Shown: one piece after another, positions 29,530 to 48,898 of the stretch
Layout: each line of letters starts with the position of its first letter
Position numbering within the stretch: the first letter of the stretch is position 1
Assembly: GCF_021491355.1 (NCBI RefSeq)
Contig: NZ_JAKENF010000002.1
Location: 744,001 to 808,000, forward strand
DNA: 64,000 nucleotides
Source of the DNA: Alitabrizicola rongguiensis
GTDB lineage: Bacteria; Pseudomonadota; Alphaproteobacteria; Rhodobacterales; Rhodobacteraceae
Direction of reading: 5' to 3'
Notes under the pieces: generated by a model
What the model was told of the DNA's origin: nothing
Seen by the model: the letters and a program-made list of their open reading frames with translations, nothing else
The model's database searches: none
Program-made: the position numbers and the translations under genes

Positions 29530-32500
29530 TCAACCGGTCGGCTTCGTGTCGTCCCGGTGAAGCGTCGTGTATAGCGTCGGCAGGAAGACCAGGGTCAGGA
29601 GTGTCGCCACCAACAGGCCCCCCATGATCGCGAAGGCCATCGGCCCCCAGAACAAAGTCGGGGCGATCGGCAGAAGGCCCAGGACGGTCGACAGCGCCGT
29701 CAACAGCAGAGGGCGGAACCGGCTGGTTGCCGCCTTTATCGCCGCTTCCCGAACTCCCAGGCCCGCCGCGCGTTCGTCATTGATCTGGGTGATAAGAATG
29801 ACGGCGTTTTTCGCGATCATCCCGATCAGCGCAAGGATACCCAGGATCGCTACGAAACCGAGCGAGCGCTGGAACAACAGCAGCGCCCCTACGACCCCGA
29901 TCAGCCCAAGTGGGAGAAGACAGATCACCATCGCCATGTCGCGGAAGCTCTGGAGCTGGATCATCAGCAGGGTGACCATGATGAAAGCCATAAGCGGGAC
30001 CACGGCAAAGACCGACGCCTGACTTTCGGCACTTGTTTCGACTGTCCCGCCGGTCTGCACCTCGAAGCCTGCCGGCAGTCCTGCACCGAATGCGTCGATC
30101 TTGTCCTGCAAGGCTTCGACAACGGCCTCGGGCGTAACGCCGGGGGCGGTATCGGCGAGGATCGTCAAGGTCGGCAGTCGGTCGCGGCGCCAGATGAAGG
30201 GCTGCTCCTGGTCATAGGAGAATGTGGCGAACTGGCCGAGCGCCACCGTGCGGCCCCCGGGGACGGGCACCTGCAGCGTGGACAGCGTGTCAAGCGAAAC
30301 CCGGTCCTGCTCGTCTGCGCGGGCGACGATCGGGATCAGGTAGATGTTGTCGCGCAGCTGCGAGACGGTCGTTCCCGAAACGGCGGTGTTGAGGATCGCG
30401 GCGACCTGCGCGCTGGTCAGGCCAAGGCGGCGGGCGCGGTCCTGATCGACCTCGATCTTGAGTTGGCGGGCCGGTTCGATCCAGTCGAAATGCACATGGC
30501 GCGTGTCCGGTTCCGAGGCGACGACCCCGGCAAGCTCCATTGCCTTGGCGCGGAGTGTTTCCACATCCGGGCCGGTCAGACGGTACTGGACCGGCCAACC
30601 GACCGGAGGACCAAGCTCAAGCGGGCTGACGCGGCTGATCGCCTCGGGGAAGGTCTCGTCCAGCCAGCCTGACAGTTCCGCCTCGAGCCTCTGGCGCGCG
30701 TCGAAATCCTTTGCCATGACGACGATCTGCGAGTGATGATCGCTCGGCGGCTCGATCGAGAGCGGCAGGTAGAAGCGGATGACATTCCGCCCGACGTAAG
30801 AGCTGTAGAACTGCGCCTCGCCGCTCTCCTTGATATGATCCTCGATCCGCCGGATCGCATCTTCGCTGGCAAAGATCGAACTGGCACGCGGCAGCTGGAA
30901 ATCGACGATCAGTTCCAGCCGGTCCGAGGCCGGGAAGAACTGTCGGTCGACATGACGCAAGCCCACGACGGCAAGGGCGAACAAGCCGAGGGTAACGGCG
31001 ACGGTCAGAAAACGCATCCTCATCGCGACGGACAGGAAGCCCTGATAAGCCCGCAGCACCGCGCCCGGCTTCTCGGGTTCTCCGGTCGTCGCGGGCGGCT
31101 TCAGCAGGACCGAACTGACCAACGGAGCAAAGATAACCGCCACCAGCCACGATGCGATCAGCGCGATCCCGACGACGTAGAAGATCGAGATCGTGTACTC
31201 GCCTGCCGAGCTTTGCGCGAAACCGATCGGCACGAAGCCTGCGATGGTAACCAGAGTTCCGGTCAGCATGGGCGCAGCCAGCGTTCGGAAGGCGAAACTG
31301 GCCGCCTGATCGATCGTCTCACCGATCGCCAGCCGTCGCAGGATCGCGTCCACCGTCGTCATCGCATCATCGACCAGAAGCGCCAAGGCGATGATGAGCG
31401 CCCCAAGCGAGATGCGGTGCAGGTCGATCCCGAAAGCCTGCATAACCAGAAACACGATGGCGAGCGTAACGGGAATGGTGATCGCGACGACCGCCCCCGG
31501 GCGCACCCCGAGTGCAATGAAGCTCACGCCAAGGATAATGGCTACGGCTTGCCAAAGCGACTCGGTGAAGTCGCCGATCGCCTGATCCACGACCACCGGC
31601 TGATCCGAAATCAGGATCGGCTCGATCCCAATCGGCAGTTCCGCCTTGATGTTCGCCATGGCCTTGTCGATGTTCTGGCCGAGCGCAAGGATGTCGCCGC
31701 CCTCGGCCATCGAGATCGCTAGTGCGATGGCTCTTTGCCCGTTGATCCGCAGGAGCGGCTGTGGCGGATCAGACAGGGTTCGCCGGACCGTCGCGATATC
31801 GCCAAGGCGGATCATGCGGCCATCGGCCACCAGCGAGACATTTAGCAGATCGGCCTCACTCTCGAACGAGCCCGACACCCGGATCGCGACATTCTCCTGA
31901 CCCGTGGTAACAACACCGGCGGGGCGCACCACGTTCTGCGCGGCAATCGCCTCGAAGATGCGGCCATAATCGAGGCCCAACGCGGCCACACGGTCCGGCA
32001 GGAACTCGAGCAGGATCTGTTCATCCTGCACGCCAATCCACTCGACCTTGGCGATGCCATCCACCTGCCGCAGCAGCTCCGAGCGGACCATGTCGACATT
32101 GTCGCGCAACTCGCGATCCGAGAATCCGTCGGCAGTGAACCCGTAGATGATGCCGAACACGTCTCCGAAGCTGTCATTGAAGAACGGTCCCAGCACGCCG
32201 GGAGGAAGGGTGTGGCGGATATCGCCGATACTGTTGCGAACCTCCTGCCAGACGGCCGGCACTCGATCCGGCGGGAAGGATTCCTGCAGGTCTACATAGA
32301 TGGTGACGATCCCCGGCCGGGTGATCGACTGAAGTGCATCCAAGCCCGTCGTCTCTTCCAGCCGCCGCTCCAGACGGTCGGTCAGCTGGGTCTGGGTCTC
32401 CTCCATCGTGGCGCCGGGCCAGACGGCGGTGACAAGCATCGTCTTGATGGTGAAGCTGGGATCTTCGTCGCGGCCGAGATTGATGAAGGCAAAGGCCCCC

Positions 32501-32580
32501 GCGATCACCGAGACGATCATCAGGTAGATGGTCAACTGGCGGCTTTTCAGCGCCCAGCTTGACAGGTTGAAGCTTGTCAT
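29530..32580 (-). CDS. RND-family efflux permease (system 1)
   Basis: A 1016-residue AcrB/HAE1-superfamily inner-membrane permease. It has the usual layout of TM1, a large periplasmic porter loop, TM2-7, a second loop and TM8-12. TM4 carries the paired acidic residues in ALALLVDDAMTTVDAI that form the proton relay. GRDEDPSFTIKTMLVTAVWPGA after TM1 is typical of the branch found with single-lipoprotein adaptors. Its ATG overlaps the stop of the adaptor gene (ATGA). No outer-membrane factor is encoded nearby, so a TolC-type protein must come from elsewhere. Drug or metal specificity cannot be told from sequence. Confidence 0.92.
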   Translation of the reverse strand: MTSFNLSSWALKSRQLTIYLMIVSVIAGAFAFINLGRDEDPSFTIKTMLVTAVWPGATMEETQTQLTDRLERRLEETTGLDALQSITRPGIVTIYVDLQESFPPDRVPAVWQEVRNSIGDIRHTLPPGVLGPFFNDSFGDVFGIIYGFTADGFSDRELRDNVDMVRSELLRQVDGIAKVEWIGVQDEQILLEFLPDRVAALGLDYGRIFEAIAAQNVVRPAGVVTTGQENVAIRVSGSFESEADLLNVSLVADGRMIRLGDIATVRRTLSDPPQPLLRINGQRAIALAISMAEGGDILALGQNIDKAMANIKAELPIGIEPILISDQPVVVDQAIGDFTESLWQAVAIILGVSFIALGVRPGAVVAITIPVTLAIVFLVMQAFGIDLHRISLGALIIALALLVDDAMTTVDAILRRLAIGETIDQAASFAFRTLAAPMLTGTLVTIAGFVPIGFAQSSAGEYTISIFYVVGIALIASWLVAVIFAPLVSSVLLKPPATTGEPEKPGAVLRAYQGFLSVAMRMRFLTVAVTLGLFALAVVGLRHVDRQFFPASDRLELIVDFQLPRASSIFASEDAIRRIEDHIKESGEAQFYSSYVGRNVIRFYLPLSIEPPSDHHSQIVVMAKDFDARQRLEAELSGWLDETFPEAISRVSPLELGPPVGWPVQYRLTGPDVETLRAKAMELAGVVASEPDTRHVHFDWIEPARQLKIEVDQDRARRLGLTSAQVAAILNTAVSGTTVSQLRDNIYLIPIVARADEQDRVSLDTLSTLQVPVPGGRTVALGQFATFSYDQEQPFIWRRDRLPTLTILADTAPGVTPEAVVEALQDKIDAFGAGLPAGFEVQTGGTVETSAESQASVFAVVPLMAFIMVTLLMIQLQSFRDMAMVICLLPLGLIGVVGALLLFQRSLGFVAILGILALIGMIAKNAVILITQINDERAAGLGVREAAIKAATSRFRPLLLTALSTVLGLLPIAPTLFWGPMAFAIMGGLLVATLLTLVFLPTLYTTLHRDDTKPTG

Positions 32581-33680
32581 TGCGCCGCTCCGGCCAGGCG
32601 AACGGTCTGGCCGGGGCGCAACGCCTGCACACCCGCCGTCACCACGACGTCGCCGGGCTCAAGCCCCGCCTCGACCAGCACGCTTGCCGGCAGGAATCGC
32701 TCGACCTCGATGTCGCGCAGGCTCACTGTCATGGTGGCCGAGTCGATCACCCAGACAGCAGGCCCGGTTTCGCTGCGGGTCAGCGCGGTCGCGGGGATCT
32801 CGATGACGGTTCCCTCGCCGAAATCGGCCGTGCCGGTTACGGTGGACCCCAACCGAAGCTCGCCCGGCGGGTCGATCAGCCCGACGCGCACGCGGAAAGT
32901 TCCGGTCACCAGATCGGCGCGGGGGGCAACTTCGCGGATGCGGCCCTTGGTGCTGATCGTCGGGCTTTGAGACAGCGCGACGGTGACCTCGGGATCGGCG
33001 GGGCTGGTTTCAAGGATGTTTGCAGGTACGTCGAACACGGCATCTAGCCCGCCATCGCGCGCCACCTGCACGACCATGCGCCCCGGCTGCACCACCTCGC
33101 CCGGCTCTGCGCCAATCGCTGTGACACGTCCCGGCGCATCGGCATAAAGGGCGGTGTCATTCAGCCGACGCTTGGCGATCAGGTATTGCGCCCGTGCCGC
33201 ATCGGCCTGCGACTCCGCCGTGGTCAGGCCGGTCTCGGCCCGGTCGAAGGCCGCACGCGACGCGAAACCACGGTCGTACAGCTGGCGTTGCCGGTCGAAA
33301 TTGGTGCGCGCCTCGGAGAGTTGCCCCTCTGCCGCGGTCATCGTGGCTTCGGCGGCCCGCAGACCATTCTCCTCGTCGGACGGGTCGAGACGGGCAAGGA
33401 ACTGCCCCGCCTCCACCTGATCGCCAACCCCCACTGCCCGCTCGGTCATCCGCCCGCCGATGCGGAAGGCAAGGTCTGCCTGCACCTGGCTTTCGACGAT
33501 CCCCGCCAGCGAAACGGTCATGCCCATCGTCTGCGGCTGTACCGTAACGCTGCGCACCGGACGAGCCTGTTCCTCGGCCGGTTTCTCTTCCTCACCCTTG
33601 CAGGCACCGAGAGTGGCGACGACCCCCAGAACCAGCGCCATTCGTGTCGCGTTGCGCAGCGCTGCCAGCGGTTTCTGCAT
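32577..33680 (-). CDS. RND efflux periplasmic adaptor, lipoprotein (system 1)
   Basis: A 367-residue membrane-fusion protein with a lipoprotein signal ending TLGAC (Cys27). A barrel-sandwich half RPVRSVTVQPQTMG, a helical hairpin (about 100-170, rich in Ala/Glu/Arg) and a beta-barrel region follow. ATG 33680 is chosen for its AAGGAG 6 bp upstream; an in-frame extension to 33731 is not supported. It is the first gene of a two-gene efflux operon and overlaps the permease start by 4 bp. A lone CTGC-N3-GCAG motif lies 62 bp upstream. Confidence 0.9.
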   Translation of the reverse strand: MQKPLAALRNATRMALVLGVVATLGACKGEEEKPAEEQARPVRSVTVQPQTMGMTVSLAGIVESQVQADLAFRIGGRMTERAVGVGDQVEAGQFLARLDPSDEENGLRAAEATMTAAEGQLSEARTNFDRQRQLYDRGFASRAAFDRAETGLTTAESQADAARAQYLIAKRRLNDTALYADAPGRVTAIGAEPGEVVQPGRMVVQVARDGGLDAVFDVPANILETSPADPEVTVALSQSPTISTKGRIREVAPRADLVTGTFRVRVGLIDPPGELRLGSTVTGTADFGEGTVIEIPATALTRSETGPAVWVIDSATMTVSLRDIEVERFLPASVLVEAGLEPGDVVVTAGVQALRPGQTVRLAGAAQ

Positions 33681-33799
33681 GGGTTGCTCCTTGATCGTCA
33701 GGTGCGCACCCGGGGCGATCCGCCGGGGCATTCAGTTTGCTCTGCGATGCAGAATCGAAGGGCTGCGGTCAAGCCGCAAGGTCGAGCTGTCAGCGCGGT

Positions 33800-38808: not shown

Positions 38809-40512
38809 ATGGTGTCGGACGCGGACCGGCACCCCGAACTGTCCCGCCGCTTCGGTGCGCTCAGCCGCGCCGAGGCGGTGCTGGTCGAGAACATCGGTAT
38901 AGGCCATTTCGACCGGCTGGGGTCCCTGCCGGTCGAGGGTGATCCGGACCGCCTGGTGAGGGCCGAGCTCATCCGCGCGCTCCTGCTGGGCGGCGATGGA
39001 CTCCCGAAGATGCACGAGAAGGGCATTCGCCTGTCCGGAGCCTGGATCAAGGGCATCCTCGATCTCGAAGGCTGCCGCATCCCGCATGATATCGGCCTGC
39101 TCGACTGCCGCTTCGATGCGCCTCCCGTCCTTCGCTCCGCGGTGGTCGATACGGTGTCCTTCGACGGATCGGTGCTGCCCGGCCTCGCGGCCGACAGGGT
39201 CGACGCGCGTGGCGACATCCTGATGCGCTCGGCGCAGATCAGCGGGCCAATCGCGCTACGGGGCGCGCGGATCGGCGGGGATTTTGCACTCGATGGCGCC
39301 GAGCTCACTCACGCCGACGATCGGGCGGTCAGCGCCGAAAGGATCGCCATTCGAGGAGGCGCCCTGTTCCGTGGGACCAGGGTGCTGGGAACGATCGCCC
39401 TTCCCGGCGCAAAGATCGGCGGTGATCTCGATTTCGTCGGTGCGCATGTGGAGCGGCATGACGGACCGGCGATCGAAGCGGATGCCGTGCAGATCGGTGG
39501 CGATCTCATCCTTCGACGGGTCGAGGTGACGGGTCGCATCTCGGCCGTCTCTGCCCGTATCGACGGCGATGCCGACGCCTCGGGCGCAGGACTCTGGGCG
39601 CCGGGCGAGATCGCGCTGAACCTCAACCGAAGCGAGGTCGACGGCGCGTTCTTCCTGAGACACGAGGCCGTCATCGACGGGGCGCTGAGCCTGTCTGGCG
39701 CCACGCTTGGCGCCATCGTCGATGAGGCGGCCTGCTGGCCGAAACCGGGCGATCTGCTTCTGAACCGCTGCCGCTATGGCGGCTTCCTCGGCGCCCCGGT
39801 CGGCGCGAAGGAGCGGCTCGACTGGCTGTCGCGGCAGGACCCCTCCCGATGGGGCGAGGATTTCTGGCCGCAGCCCTACGAGCAACTCGCCCGCGTCCTG
39901 GCCGAGATGGGGCATCAGGAGGACAAACGCTCGGTCCTGATCGCGAAAGAGCGGTTGCAGAGGCAAGCCCGCATCCGCCGGGCCCGCCGCTGGCCTCGCA
40001 AGGCGGTGCTTTGGATGTCCGACCGGCTGCTCTGGGTCACGACCGGCTATGGCCGCCTGCCGCTCCTGGCCCTCGTCTGGATCCTCGTCTTCTGGCTTCT
40101 GGGCGGCTTCTACTATGCGTGGCTCGAACGGACCAACGCCCTGCGCCCGAATTCGCCCGTGGTTCTGCGCTCGCCCGAATGGGTGCTTTGCGGCGTGCCC
40201 CAGGGGCAGACATTGTTCCTTCCCTCTATCGGGCAGGAGCGTGAGGGCCGCGCCCTGCCCGGCCAGGCCCAACTCGCCTGCTTCAAGGAGCAGCCAGAGG
40301 CCGCAGCCTATCCGAAGTTCAGCGCCCTGATGCTTTCGGCCGACATGATCTTTCCCGGCCTTGGCAGTGGGCAGAAGGACTTCTGGTCACCTGATACCAG
40401 GATCACGGCGGGATACTTCGGCAAACTTTATGCCTATTTCCAGACGCTGGCCGGTCTTGGTCTGGGCCTGCTGGCGGTGGCGGGGTTCAGCGGGATCGTA
40501 CGGTCGGACTAG
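38809..40512 (+). CDS. membrane protein with pentapeptide/beta-helix-like repeats; function unknown
   Basis: A 567-residue protein. After an N-terminal helical region (1-75), residues of about 75-310 form imperfect 18-20-residue turns such as ISGPIALRGARIGGDFALDG, GTIALPGAKIGGDLDFVGA and GRISAVSARIDGDADASGA. This is a right-handed beta-helix pattern close to pentapeptide-repeat and bactofilin-like folds. A charged helical segment (about 350-405, very Arg-rich) precedes a transmembrane helix (about 415-438). A periplasmic loop with two cysteines (LCGVP, LACFKEQ) and a final hydrophobic segment (about 545-562) follow. The ATG starts 6 bp after the dipeptidase stop, so they are cotranscribed. 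The stop shares a CTAG with the next, convergent gene. No function can be assigned. Confidence 0.75.
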   Translation: MVSDADRHPELSRRFGALSRAEAVLVENIGIGHFDRLGSLPVEGDPDRLVRAELIRALLLGGDGLPKMHEKGIRLSGAWIKGILDLEGCRIPHDIGLLDCRFDAPPVLRSAVVDTVSFDGSVLPGLAADRVDARGDILMRSAQISGPIALRGARIGGDFALDGAELTHADDRAVSAERIAIRGGALFRGTRVLGTIALPGAKIGGDLDFVGAHVERHDGPAIEADAVQIGGDLILRRVEVTGRISAVSARIDGDADASGAGLWAPGEIALNLNRSEVDGAFFLRHEAVIDGALSLSGATLGAIVDEAACWPKPGDLLLNRCRYGGFLGAPVGAKERLDWLSRQDPSRWGEDFWPQPYEQLARVLAEMGHQEDKRSVLIAKERLQRQARIRRARRWPRKAVLWMSDRLLWVTTGYGRLPLLALVWILVFWLLGGFYYAWLERTNALRPNSPVVLRSPEWVLCGVPQGQTLFLPSIGQEREGRALPGQAQLACFKEQPEAAAYPKFSALMLSADMIFPGLGSGQKDFWSPDTRITAGYFGKLYAYFQTLAGLGLGLLAVAGFSGIVRSD

Positions 40513-40823
40513 TCCGGCAACTGTGCCTCGACCCGGCCTCTTACCACCCGAACGGAAAAGACCGGCAAAGGCGGGCCATCTTCTTCGCTGGTGCCATCCG
40601 TCAGGTCGAAGGCCGCGCCATCAGCAGGGCATTCGAGCACCGTTCCATCCAGTACCGCCCCTGCCAGAGGAGCATCGCAGACCGGGCAGGAGCCGGCACA
40701 GCAGAAGACCGTGCCATCATCCGCCTCGAACACGACATAAGGCAGGCCTGCATGATGAAAGGGCACCGCCTCCTCATCCTGAAGTTCTTCAGTCGGACAG
40801 ACGACAACCCAGCCCATGCTCAC
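40509..40823 (-). CDS. Rieske-like small protein lacking both histidine ligands
   Basis: A 104-residue cytosolic protein (GTG 40823; ATG 40817 is the alternative). Its second half aligns with the Rieske ferredoxin signature C-x-H...C-P-x-H-G-x-x-F-D: here CPVCDAPL, then [15 protein letters not shown]. Both cysteines of the cluster site are kept, but the two histidines are replaced by Val and Asp. Two extra cysteines sit just before (FCCAGSC), so a [2Fe-2S] Rieske centre cannot form; a different metal site or none is possible. The GTG overlaps the stop of the RND permease by 4 bp (GTGA), making it the third gene of that efflux operon. The codons at both changed sites were checked. Confidence 0.7.
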
Positions 40824-43800
40824 GCCTCCTTCGCCGGGGCCTCGACCGTCTTGCGGCCCTTCACCCTCTCACGGATCGACTGGAACACGACGTAGAGGGC
40901 CGGCACGACGAAGATGCCGACAAGAGCCGCCGAGAGCATCCCCGCCGCCACCCCCGTGCCCACGGACCGGCGGGAGATCATGCTGGCGCCCGTCGCCGTC
41001 ACCAGCGGGATCAGGCCGGCGATGAAGGCGAAGCTCGTCATCATCACCGCACGAAAGCGCGACCGCGCTCCGTCGATGGCGGCATCGACGATCGATTCCC
41101 CGTGTTCGCGGCGGAGCTTCGCGAATTCGACAATCAGGATCGCGTTCTTGGCTGCCAGCGCGATCAGCACCACAAGGCCGATCTGGGCGTAGATGTTGAA
41201 CGGCAAGCCGGTCAGCTTGAGCGCCCCCATTGCCCCGGCGACGCCAAAGGTCACCGACAGCATCACCGGCACCGGAATTGTCCAGCTTTCGTACAGCGCG
41301 ACGAGGAAGAGGTAGGCGAACAGCAGGGCAAGGGCGAGGATCATCGTGGTCTTGCCCGCCGCCTCCTTCTCCTGCAGCGCCGTGCCGGTCCATTCATAGC
41401 CGAAGCCGGGCGGCAGGGTCTGGGCCGCGACCTGCTCCATCGAAGCGATCGCCTGGCCGGACGAGGCTCCAGCAGAGGGCCCGCCGTTGATCGTGGCCGA
41501 ACGGTTGTTGTTGTAGCGCTGCAGCATCATCGGACCGACGGTGTAATCGGGTGAAGAGAAGGCACCGACCGCAACCATTTCTCCGGTCGTCTGTGACCGC
41601 ACATGCACCCTGGCGATGTCGTTGACCGAAGTCCGGTCGTCCTCGGAGCCGGCAAGCTGCACCTGCCAGGCCCGACCGAACAGGTTGAAGTCGTTGACAT
41701 AGACTGTTCCGAGGATCGCCTGCAGGGTCGAGAACACGTCCGACAGTTGAACGCCCAGCGCATAGAGCCTGTCGCGGTCGATGTTCAGGAACAACTGGGG
41801 CGTATCCGCCGAGAACGTGGTGTAGACGCCAGTCAGGCCGGGGTCCTGGTTCGCCGCCGCCGCGATGCCACGCGCCGTTTCCGCCAGTTCGATCGGCGAG
41901 CGGCCCTGCCGGTCGATCAGCTGGAACTCGAAACCCGACCCGGTGCCGAGACCCGAGATCGGCGGCAGGTTGAAGGGGATCACCTGCGCCTCGCGGATCG
42001 CCGCGCCATCGGCATAGGTGCGCTTGAGCGCGGCATAGACAGACTTCGAGAAATCGGTTCTTTCCGCGAAGTCCTCGAGCGAAACGATCGTGAAGGCCGC
42101 ATTCGATCTGGCCAGGCCATCGAGCATGGAATAGCCGGTCATCGAGGTGACGTTCTTGACCCCGGGGATCGCCCGGACCATCTCGATCACCTTTGCCTGC
42201 ACCGCTGCCGTCCGGTTGACCGAAGCGGCATCGGGCAGGCGCGTCTCGATCATGTAATAGCCCTGATCCTCTGCCGGCAGAAACCCGGTCGGCACCGTCT
42301 TGAACAGCCAGCCCGAAAGCCCGAGCGCTGCGGCAAGCAGCACCAGCCCGATGATCGATCGCCGAGCGATTGCGCCCGCGACGTAGGCATAGCCGTCGCG
42401 CGTCTTGTCGATGCCGCGGGAAATCCAGCCCATCACCCCTTTTCGCGGCCCGTGATGGGGCTTGAGGATGATCGCGCAAAGCGCCGGCGACAGCGACAGG
42501 GCGTTGATCGCCGAAATCACCATCGAGACAGAAACGGTCACGGCGAATTGCTGGAACAGCTGCCCGGAAATGCCGGGGATGAAGGCCACCGGCACGAAGA
42601 CGGACAAGAGCACCAGCGTGATCGCGATGATAGGCCCGGTGATTTCGCTCATCGCGGCGCTGGTGGCTTGCGCCGGGGTCATCTCCGGGTGGTCGTGCAT
42701 CTTGGCTTCAACGGCCTCAACCACCACGATGGCGTCATCGACGACGATACCGATCGCCAGCACCATCGCCAAAAGCGAGACGGTGTTGATGGTAAAGCCC
42801 AGGGCCAGCATGATCGCGAAAGTGCCAATCAGCGCCACCGGCACGGCAATGACCGGGATGATGGTCGCACGCAGGCTGCCAAGGAAGATGAAGACAACGA
42901 CCACGACCAGCACGAACGCTTCGATCAACGTATGCTCTACCTCGGAGATGCTCTCCTTGACGAAGATCGAACTGTCCCCGACCAGGTCATAGGTCACCCC
43001 GGGCGGGAAATCCGCCTGCATCTCGGCCATGACCTGCTTCACACCCGCTGCCGCGGCCAGCGAGTTCGCGCCCGGCGAAAGGTAAAGTCCGATCAGCGTT
43101 GCTGGCGCGCCGTCGAACGACGTAAGGACATCCGAGTTCTTTTCGCCCAGTTGCACATCGGCGATGTCGCCGATGGTCACGGTCGATCCATCAGGGTTTG
43201 CGCGGATGATGATCTTGGCGAACTCGGCCGGGTCCGAAAGGCGACCTTGCGTCTGCACGTTCAGTTGCAGTCCGGGATCCTTGACCATCGGCTGGGCGCC
43301 CACCCGGCCGATGGCGGCCTGGATGTTCTGCGTCTTCAGCGCGTTCGAGACATCGGACGGCGTAAGGCTGAACGAGGCCAGCCGGTTCGAGTCGAGCACG
43401 ATCCGCATCGCGAACTCGTTCGAAGAAAAGATCGAGGCATCGCCGACGCCCGGCACCCGCTTCAGCGCATCGAGCAGGCTGATCCGGGCATAGTTGGTCA
43501 GCGTTGCCGCTGTCTGGCTTGCGTCGGGAGAATGAAGCGCCACGCCCATCAGCAGCGCCGAAGACTTCTTCGCAACCTTGACCCCGGTCTGACGCACTTC
43601 GGACGGCAGAAGCGGCGTTGCCAGCGACACACGGTTCTGGACGTTGACCGTCGCAATATCGGGATCGGTGCCAACGGCGAAGGACACGGTAAGGGTGTAG
43701 GACCCGTCGGCACCCGAGGTCGAACGCATGTAAATGGAGTCGTCCACGCCGACGACCTTGTCCTCGATCACCTGGGCGACGGTTTGCTCCGTCACCTCGG

Positions 43801-43963
43801 CGCTGGCGCCGGGATAAGACGCGGTCACCGAAACCTGCGGCGGCACGATGTTCGGGAACTGCTCGATCGGCATGACCGACATGGCGATGAAGCCCGCAAT
43901 GGTCAGCACGATCGAGATGACCGCCGCCAGCCGCGGACGGGCAATGAAGATGTCGGCAAACAT
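40820..43963 (-). CDS. RND-family multidrug efflux permease, HAE1/AcrB type (system 2)
   Basis: A 1047-residue permease that fits AcrB/MexB closely. The N-terminus is [20 protein letters not shown], followed by [26 protein letters not shown]4 has the conserved double Asp in [18 protein letters not shown], and the last third has [30 protein letters not shown]. It would export hydrophobic drugs with the adaptor encoded 3 bp upstream. No outer-membrane channel or TetR-type repressor is encoded next to it. The Rieske-like gene overlaps its stop. Confidence 0.95.
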
Positions 43964-43966
43964 CGC

Positions 43967-45088
43967 TCAGTTGCCCCCGGCAACGGCGGCATCGACCTTG
44001 ATGCCCGGCCGCGCCTTGTTCAGGCCTTCGGTGATGACCTTCTCCCCTTCGGTCAGGCCCGAGGTCACGACGACGCGTCCCTTCGCAGAGTCGCCCGTGT
44101 TGATGCGGCGCTGCTCGACCGTGCCATCATCACCCACCAGCAAGACATAGGCTCCGGTGATATCGCGCAGCACAGCCTGCTGCGGAACAGTCAGCGCATT
44201 GTTCGTGGCCTCTTCCTCGACGTTGACGGTGACAAGAGATCCATCCCGAAGCCGGCCCTCGGGGTTGGGAAAGACGGCGCGGATCATGACGGTATCGGTC
44301 GACTGGCTGACCTGCATGTCGGAAAAGTTGACGGTGCCGGGGATGCCGTAGGCTGATCCGTCAGCCAGTGTCAGGCGGACCGAGCCGGCACCGGAGGCTG
44401 CCCCCGAACGGACGCTTTCCTGAAACAGGAGAAACATGCGTTCCGGCACGGGAAACTCGACCATCATCGGGTCGGTTGTCACCAGGGTGACAAGCGTTCC
44501 GCTTTCCGGTCCGATCAGCGCACCGACACTGACGCTCGACAGCCCCACCCTACCCTGAAACGGGGCTCTGATCTGGGTGTAGGAGAGGTTCAGTTCTGCC
44601 GCATCATGCTGGGCGGCCATGCGCTCCACGTCAGCGCTGGCCCGCGCCGCCTCTGCCTCGGCCTTGTCGAGGGTTGCCTGCGCCGAGGCCTGCCGCGTCA
44701 CCAGTTCGCGCTGCCGGTTCCGTTCGAGAATCGCGAGGGTCTCGCTGGCCTTGGCGGCGGCAAGGGCTGCGTCGGCCTGAGCAAGACTGGCCTCGAATTC
44801 CTTCGGGTCGATGGCAAACAGCAGGCTATCCTTCGCGACCACGCTGCCTTCGGTAAAGCCGATCTCGGAGACAAAGCCGCTGACCCGGGCGCGGATGTCG
44901 ACCTTCTGTTCGGCCACCACGCGTCCATTGAATGCCGCCGCCTGCACCACCTGTGTCAACGCCGCCGGTTCGACGGTCACCGCGGGAAGCGGCTGCGTCT
45001 GGGCAAGCGCTACCCCCGAAAGGCCAAGGCCAAGACACAGGGCGACGAGGCTGTTCCGCAGGTGCAATGAGGTTGCCCGACCGTACAT
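43967..45088 (-). CDS. RND efflux periplasmic adaptor (system 2)
   Basis: A 373-residue membrane-fusion protein with a cleavable signal peptide (about 1-30, ending GVALA) and no lipobox cysteine, unlike the other adaptor in the window. Lipoyl-like half VVAEQKVDIRARVSGFVSEIGF, a helical hairpin rich in Ala/Glu (about 90-150), and the beta-barrel domain SVSVGALIGPESGTLVTLVTTDPMMVEFPV are visible. ATG 45088 is preceded by GGGGGAA; an in-frame start at 45112 lacks a better site. It heads the operon adaptor-permease-Rieske-like and is divergent from the HdeD gene. Confidence 0.92.
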   Translation of the reverse strand: MYGRATSLHLRNSLVALCLGLGLSGVALAQTQPLPAVTVEPAALTQVVQAAAFNGRVVAEQKVDIRARVSGFVSEIGFTEGSVVAKDSLLFAIDPKEFEASLAQADAALAAAKASETLAILERNRQRELVTRQASAQATLDKAEAEAARASADVERMAAQHDAAELNLSYTQIRAPFQGRVGLSSVSVGALIGPESGTLVTLVTTDPMMVEFPVPERMFLLFQESVRSGAASGAGSVRLTLADGSAYGIPGTVNFSDMQVSQSTDTVMIRAVFPNPEGRLRDGSLVTVNVEEEATNNALTVPQQAVLRDITGAYVLLVGDDGTVEQRRINTGDSAKGRVVVTSGLTEGEKVITEGLNKARPGIKVDAAVAGGN

Positions 45089-45183
45089 GATTCCCCCGGA
45101 AATTCGTATCACGTGGAGCAGACTAGCAGGATTGACGCGCCTGTCATCCGCTGCCGGGGACTCGAGCTTCGCCGCCCAACCAC

Positions 45184-47814: not shown

Positions 47815-48261
47815 TCAGGCCATCGCCGGCACATGCTGACGGACAAAGGCGGCGATCTCGGCCGCCGGACGAGCGCCGGGCAGGCGGGCCACTTCGCGCC
47901 CCCTGTGCCACAGGATCAGGAGCGGAATGCCGCGGATGCCCAATCGCTGCGAGATCTGGGGGTGATCCTCGGTGTTGATCTTGGCGAACCGGGCGTTGGG
48001 CGCCACAGCCTTGGCGGCCTTGGCGAATTCCGGGGCCATCATCCGGCAGGGGCCGCACCAAGGTGCCCAATAGTCGATCAGCAGCGGCAGGTCGTCCGTG
48101 CGGATCGCCTTGTCATGGGTCGCAGGATCAAGTTCGGCAACCTTGCCGCTGACGAGCGGGTCACCGCAGGAACCGCATTTCGGGTTGTCGGCAAGCCGGG
48201 CGACGGGGACGCGGTTTGCTTGACCGCAGGTGGTGCAGGTAATCCGGGCGCTGTCGGACAT
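47815..48261 (-). CDS. trxC: thioredoxin 2 with N-terminal zinc ribbon
   Basis: A 148-residue TrxC. The N-terminal zinc ribbon has Cys9, Cys12, Cys29 and Cys32 (CTTC and CGSC). It is followed by a thioredoxin domain with active site WCGPC (Cys69 and Cys72) and the cis-Pro loop RGIPLLIL. It reduces protein disulfides in the cytoplasm and is often induced by peroxide. ATG 48261 starts the zinc ribbon directly; the longer in-frame reading to 48435 would cross a palindrome and adds no domain. The palindrome TACATTT/AAATGTA lies 18 bp before the start codon and may bear on its control. Confidence 0.95.
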
Positions 48262-48278
48262 GGGGAGAGTCCTTTTGA

Positions 48279-48296
48279 TACATTTTCTCAAATGTA
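48279..48296. promoter_or_regulatory. AT-rich palindrome ahead of trxC
   Basis: TACATTT-TCTC-AAATGTA has perfect 7-bp arms and lies 18 bp upstream of the trxC ATG. It could be an operator over the promoter or a leader hairpin near the ribosome-binding site. No OxyR-type spacing is evident. Confidence 0.4.
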
Positions 48297-48433
48297 GGGA
48301 CCGGCCGCGCGAGAACCAAGCGCTGCCTCTCTCACTGCGGAAACAATGAATGCCAATATTCAGAATCGTTGACACTTCCGGATAAGTTGCCGCAGCGTCA
48401 ATTCCACTTGCATAACTAGTTGGAGGGAATGCC

Positions 48434-48898
48434 ATGAGCTACGGAAAAATCGCAGCCTTTCTCGCCTTGATTGCCCTACCTGTCGCAGCCGACCCCTTGC
48501 CGCCGAACGCCAAGCCGCTGAGCTCGAAACAAATTGAAAAGCTGTACAGCGGGAACAGCGCGGTCTGGGACAGATCGATGGTGTATTTCGCGCCGGACAA
48601 GACAACAAAGGGCGTTTTCGGCAAGCCCCCGAGTGCAACCTACACCGGCAAATGGAAAATCACAAAAAACAAGCTCTGCATGACGAACTCGCCGGTCAAC
48701 ATCAAAACTGGCGAGGCAAGCAAGAAGACCTACACCGACTGCTGGACGTTCTTCACAGACGGCGATCGAGTCCTGACATCCTATTACAACGATTTCGAAG
48801 AAGGCCGGGGGCCGAACGACGATTACAGCGAGGGCGAACTCAGCAATTTGCGCAAGGGCGACGTGGTCTCGAAGACATTTGCTAAATATCGGTCGTGA
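48434..48898 (+). CDS. secreted DUF995-like protein
   Basis: A 154-residue protein with a signal peptide (about 1-19, ending PVAA). The mature part begins with LSSKQIEKLYSGNSAVW, followed by YTGKWKITKNKLCMT and TYTDCWTFFTDGDRVL, with two cysteines likely to form a disulfide. The pattern suits DUF995, a small alphaproteobacterial secreted family of unknown function. TTGGAGGGAATGCC gives a good ribosome-binding site. The gene is visibly AT-richer and Lys-richer than its neighbours, with AAA and AAC codons frequent, which hints at a different history. It converges on gcvP through a shared hairpin. Confidence 0.7.
   Translation: MSYGKIAAFLALIALPVAADPLPPNAKPLSSKQIEKLYSGNSAVWDRSMVYFAPDKTTKGVFGKPPSATYTGKWKITKNKLCMTNSPVNIKTGEASKKTYTDCWTFFTDGDRVLTSYYNDFEEGRGPNDDYSEGELSNLRKGDVVSKTFAKYRS

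Follow-up and report, generated by a model that had tools for sequence, protein, structure and literature searches.

Directly behind the gene of an AcrB-type RND efflux pump, the genome of Alitabrizicola rongguiensis carries a short reading frame whose product resembles a Rieske ferredoxin without its histidine ligands. The locus raises two questions: what has become of the metal site, and does the protein belong to the pump? An earlier note on this DNA had proposed a new metal-site variant or a redox/metal sensor for the pump. In the literature we found no report of a His-less Rieske variant with extra cysteines, nor of a Rieske member in an RND operon. Our analysis covers a window of 64,000 nucleotides (the whole stretch of DNA considered; genome G000), which was compared with other genomes of the genus, among them the sister species G003, and with an outgroup (G273).

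A Rieske frame with altered ligand positions

The reading frame (40509-40823, minus strand) comprises 104 codons when counted from a GTG at 40823, which is the origin of all residue numbers used here. Profile searches bear out the Rieske frame recognised earlier: both the Rieske (PF00355; 42 bits, cut-off 20.3) and the Rieske_2 (37.6 bits, cut-off 27) profiles are matched above their cut-offs. The nearest named model, MocE (TIGR02377), scores 48.6 bits, below its cut-off of 136.15. With the MocE family the protein shares its length, the M-x-W start, C9 and C41, the overall frame and the ECP...FD...G pattern, at about 30-35% identity to family relatives; unlike them, it is devoid of both His ligands, carries C42 and C49, and is found in a different gene neighbourhood. 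Among solved structures, its best relatives are the CarAc Rieske ferredoxin (1vck) and the dioxygenase ferredoxin 2i7f, which align with it gaplessly across both ligand loops. Where these have C-x-H...C-x2-H, the protein reads C46-P-V48 and C65-P-A-D68, in G000 and G003 alike, so that the replacement of both His ligands by Val and Asp is confirmed by the alignment. Its six cysteines are C9, C41, C42, C46, C49, and C65. C9 and C41 are common among MocE-like relatives; C42 and C49, already singled out as extra, occur in none of the 46 further homologues inspected, each with the canonical CxH...CxxH ligands.

The Trm112p profile (PF03966; CxxC...CxxD) gives 17.9-19.2 bits with the G000 and G003 proteins, below its cut-off of 22, and this sub-threshold match is limited to these two Cys variants, with none in the five canonical relatives tested or in the G002 copy. 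Trm112p and UPF0434-like zinc-ribbon proteins have a CPxC...CxxD...DG pattern in common with our protein, which as a whole, unlike them, is Rieske-like; the weak match to this zinc-ribbon type likely reflects convergence. A structure prediction with the two orthologues as input reached a pLDDT of 38, and the model was left unused.

The junction with the efflux pump

An AcrB-type pump gene does lie immediately upstream, as the earlier note stated (Table 1). The same note took the GTGA overlap of the two genes for translational coupling, which probably does not describe the start. The motif AAGGAGG (40831-40825) is followed after 1 nt by the GTG at 40823 and after 7 nt by an ATG in the same frame at 40817. 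Because of this 7-nt distance, its identical spacing in the G003 orthologue where codon 2 differs, and the M-x-W beginning of the relatives, translation most likely starts at ATG 40817, 2 nt past the TGA of the pump gene, giving a predicted 102 residues.

Table 1. Coordinates of the features around the pump/Rieske junction (positions in the window)
Feature	Position	Strand	Evidence or remark
Pentapeptide-repeat protein gene	38809..40512	+	convergent with Rieske-like gene; conserved block neighbour
Rieske-like gene, MocE-derived (putative)	40509..40817	-	ORF; PF00355; dN/dS 0.063; frame open to GTG at 40823
Second former ligand loop, C65 P A D68	40620..40631	-	His to Asp
First former ligand loop, C41 C42 AGS C46 P V48 C49	40677..40703	-	His to Val; C42 and C49 new
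Junction of two syntenic blocks	40818..40822	-	only in G000 and G003
AcrB/HAE1-type RND permease	40820..43963	-	ACR_tran; start of pump-MFP-HdeD-PerM block
Shine-Dalgarno AAGGAGG, within pump gene end	40825..40831	-	sequence; kept in G003 orthologue
RND periplasmic adaptor (MFP), same pump	43967..45112	-	profile matches, synteny

Gene-by-gene comparison across the genus and the outgroup resolves the locus into two blocks: one of RND2, MFP2, AbgT, SLC13, M20, pentapeptide and, in some genomes, the Rieske-like gene; the other of pump, MFP, HdeD, and PerM. They lie apart in G001, G002, and the outgroup G273, and are joined, at the pump/Rieske boundary, only in G000 and G003, while the stretches read from G004, G005, and G006 show just one of the two. 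Linkage to the pump is therefore not conserved across relatives. Pump orthologues in four sister species (G001, G002, G004, and G005) are 75-76% identical, and the downstream DNA examined (219 bases in G004, 467 bases in G005) shows no Rieske-like gene in any of them. The pentapeptide gene is present in all seven genus genomes, with the Rieske-like gene or a remnant of it at its 3' end in G000 to G005; in G006 and the outgroup it stands with no Rieske-like gene beside it. By parsimony on these gene orders, the joining of the blocks would be a derived event; they could also have been joined ancestrally and split later, against which the outgroup argues.

Some further features of the two blocks were noted. 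The pentapeptide and Rieske-like genes run towards each other, and their stop codons overlap; the product of the former (567 aa) is conserved throughout the genus and in a small number of other genera in this family. Adjoining the AbgT transporter, the pentapeptide-bearing block has a second RND permease/adaptor pair (window positions 29530-33731). On the pump side, positions 47815-48435 encode a Trx2-type thioredoxin with a zinc-ribbon at its N terminus.

Orthologue, selection, and copies in sister species

A scan of the genome collection returned a single orthologue of the Rieske-like protein, L041 in G003 (an uncultured Rhodobacter MAG), with 89% identity and the same gene order. Further members with the Cys pattern were not seen among the best hits inspected from 1,968 genome draws across genus, family, class, and phylum, in which some genomes were drawn repeatedly and the pump or the pentapeptide protein served in part as query. 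In plasmid records, relatives are all below 60% identity and the two listed records examined have canonical ligands; the viral contigs scanned yielded no relatives.

Between G000 and G003, the gene has a dN of 0.053 and a dS of 0.85, hence a dN/dS of 0.063, close to that of the pump (0.050); nonsynonymous changes account for 12 of 52 (p about 8e-15). The frame is a genuine gene under purifying selection in both species, and since this selection is strong, a functional protein is made in both. Residues 28-78 are changed at 1 of 51 positions versus 10 of 53 elsewhere, with a p of 0.008 that is indicative, the boundaries having been chosen after the changes were seen; in this comparison, constraint on the protein is strongest in the former cluster region. 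Conservation of the six cysteines by itself proves little at 89% identity.

The copy in G002 is 34-35% identical, and scores 23.5 bits with PF00355. Here, too, the pentapeptide gene is the convergent neighbour, while 46 kb of the same contig separate the copy from the pump. The former ligand site, CTRGQGPQDG...ECPHEG, has lost three of the four ligands, including C46, so that the Cys pattern is confined to two species and absent in the third. The G002 frame has also lost its stop: it reads (L055, 5719-6090) past the expected position into the pentapeptide gene in antisense, with a GC2 of 0.61, a value that suggests decay. G001, G004, and G005 retain residues 66-104 alone (the last 39 codons), with one shared breakpoint. 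GC-rich intergenic repeats recur in G004, G001, and G005 (L116, L117, L118, L061, and L062), both by the truncated remnant and downstream of the pump; their frames read RPAPDPAG.KRPP.AGRALAGG, and they are possibly a repeat family involved in rearrangements.

In a tree of 40 sequences, the G000/G003 pair groups with the G002 copy (96/87) inside a MocE-like group (96/97). The branches were flagged as long, so that both the MocE origin and the sister position of G002 could be partly an artefact; the grouping with G002 is independently supported, as all three adjoin the pentapeptide gene.

Readings of the altered protein

The fold is a known one, of which the protein is a lineage-specific variant. 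We consider it probable that it is a paralogue among MocE-type Rieske ferredoxins, retained in two species after loss of its [2Fe-2S] site, with a possible mononuclear metal or thiol site and a recent adjacency to the pump. The paralogue would have arisen in a single Rhodobacteraceae genus, at the 3' end of the AbgT/SLC13/M20/pentapeptide block. With both His ligands lost, its product should no longer carry the Rieske [2Fe-2S] cluster; selection points to its being functional, and it is probably cytosolic, no signal peptide being apparent. In the two sister species, the old cluster loops would have become C46-x2-C49-x15-C65-x2-D68, which may hold one Zn or Fe, rubredoxin- or zinc-ribbon-like, or act as a thiol pair, while in the other species the gene appears to have decayed. 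A rearrangement in the G000/G003 ancestor would then have put the gene directly behind that of the RND pump, with which it is now probably co-transcribed without being an evolved pump component.

Of the changed metal site proposed earlier, one part stands: the His-less frame, the extra cysteines and the purifying selection make a non-Rieske site likely, albeit with a Cys pattern that two species have and a third does not. The more specific proposition, that a Rieske [2Fe-2S] site was converted naturally within one genus to a mononuclear Cys3Asp site (rubredoxin- or zinc-knuckle-like), selected in two species while the sister copies decayed, we regard as tentative and rather unlikely as it stands. 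Such a metal-site switch is possible, and if one Zn or Fe is bound instead of [2Fe-2S], the protein would be a natural example of the Rieske fold switching its metal site, and the canonical paralogues of its own genome, together with the ligand-poor copy of a sister species, would offer a ready comparison set.

Somewhat unlikely, though the best of the alternatives, is a metal-free, degenerate Rieske-fold protein serving as a structural or protein-protein module, in the manner of ligand-less NirD. The G002 copy, without three of the four ligand positions and yet with a Rieske score, fits such a module, as does the NirD of Bacillus bataviensis, in which a Cys and a His ligand are naturally replaced (PMC3475470). 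That protein is likewise small, Rieske-folded, and naturally deprived of ligands, but it is a nitrite reductase subunit for which added cysteines are not reported (PMC3475470). Against a metal-free module, it is precisely the former cluster region that is most conserved in G000 and G003, and two cysteines were added there.

It is improbable that the protein still binds [2Fe-2S], with Cys3Asp or all-Cys ligation instead of Cys2His2. Four to five cysteines near the old site and the retained fold profile would suit it, but the C-x2-C...C-x2-D spacing is closer to one-metal knuckles than to two-metal loops, and we know of no precedent for a Cys3Asp or all-Cys [2Fe-2S] cluster in a Rieske fold.

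On another view, the protein would be an accessory of the RND pump, expressed together with it, that responds to a metal or an oxidant by way of its Cys cluster and thereby modulates efflux. This view draws on the position of the gene, 2 nt past the pump gene on one strand with it and with a strong Shine-Dalgarno sequence, as would fit a selected operon, and on an arrangement and selection conserved in both carrier species. It is nevertheless quite unlikely: in the stretches examined, the gene is absent beside the pump orthologues of four sister species and the outgroup, the homologue in G002 is away from the pump, and the Cys pattern is not conserved. Moreover, the protein is predicted to be cytosolic, whereas RND pumps draw mainly from the periplasm and the membrane. 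The Rieske-like gene belongs to the pentapeptide block, and neither a sensor for the pump, as first suggested, nor any other part of the RND efflux system is supported. Evidently, an operon-like, near-coupled arrangement can be a rearrangement of two species, and function should not be deduced from mere adjacency.

A pseudogene or chance frame, to which the truncation in three sister species might point, is ruled out for G000 and G003, where the frame is intact in both, by the selection test (dN/dS 0.063 over a dS of 0.85).
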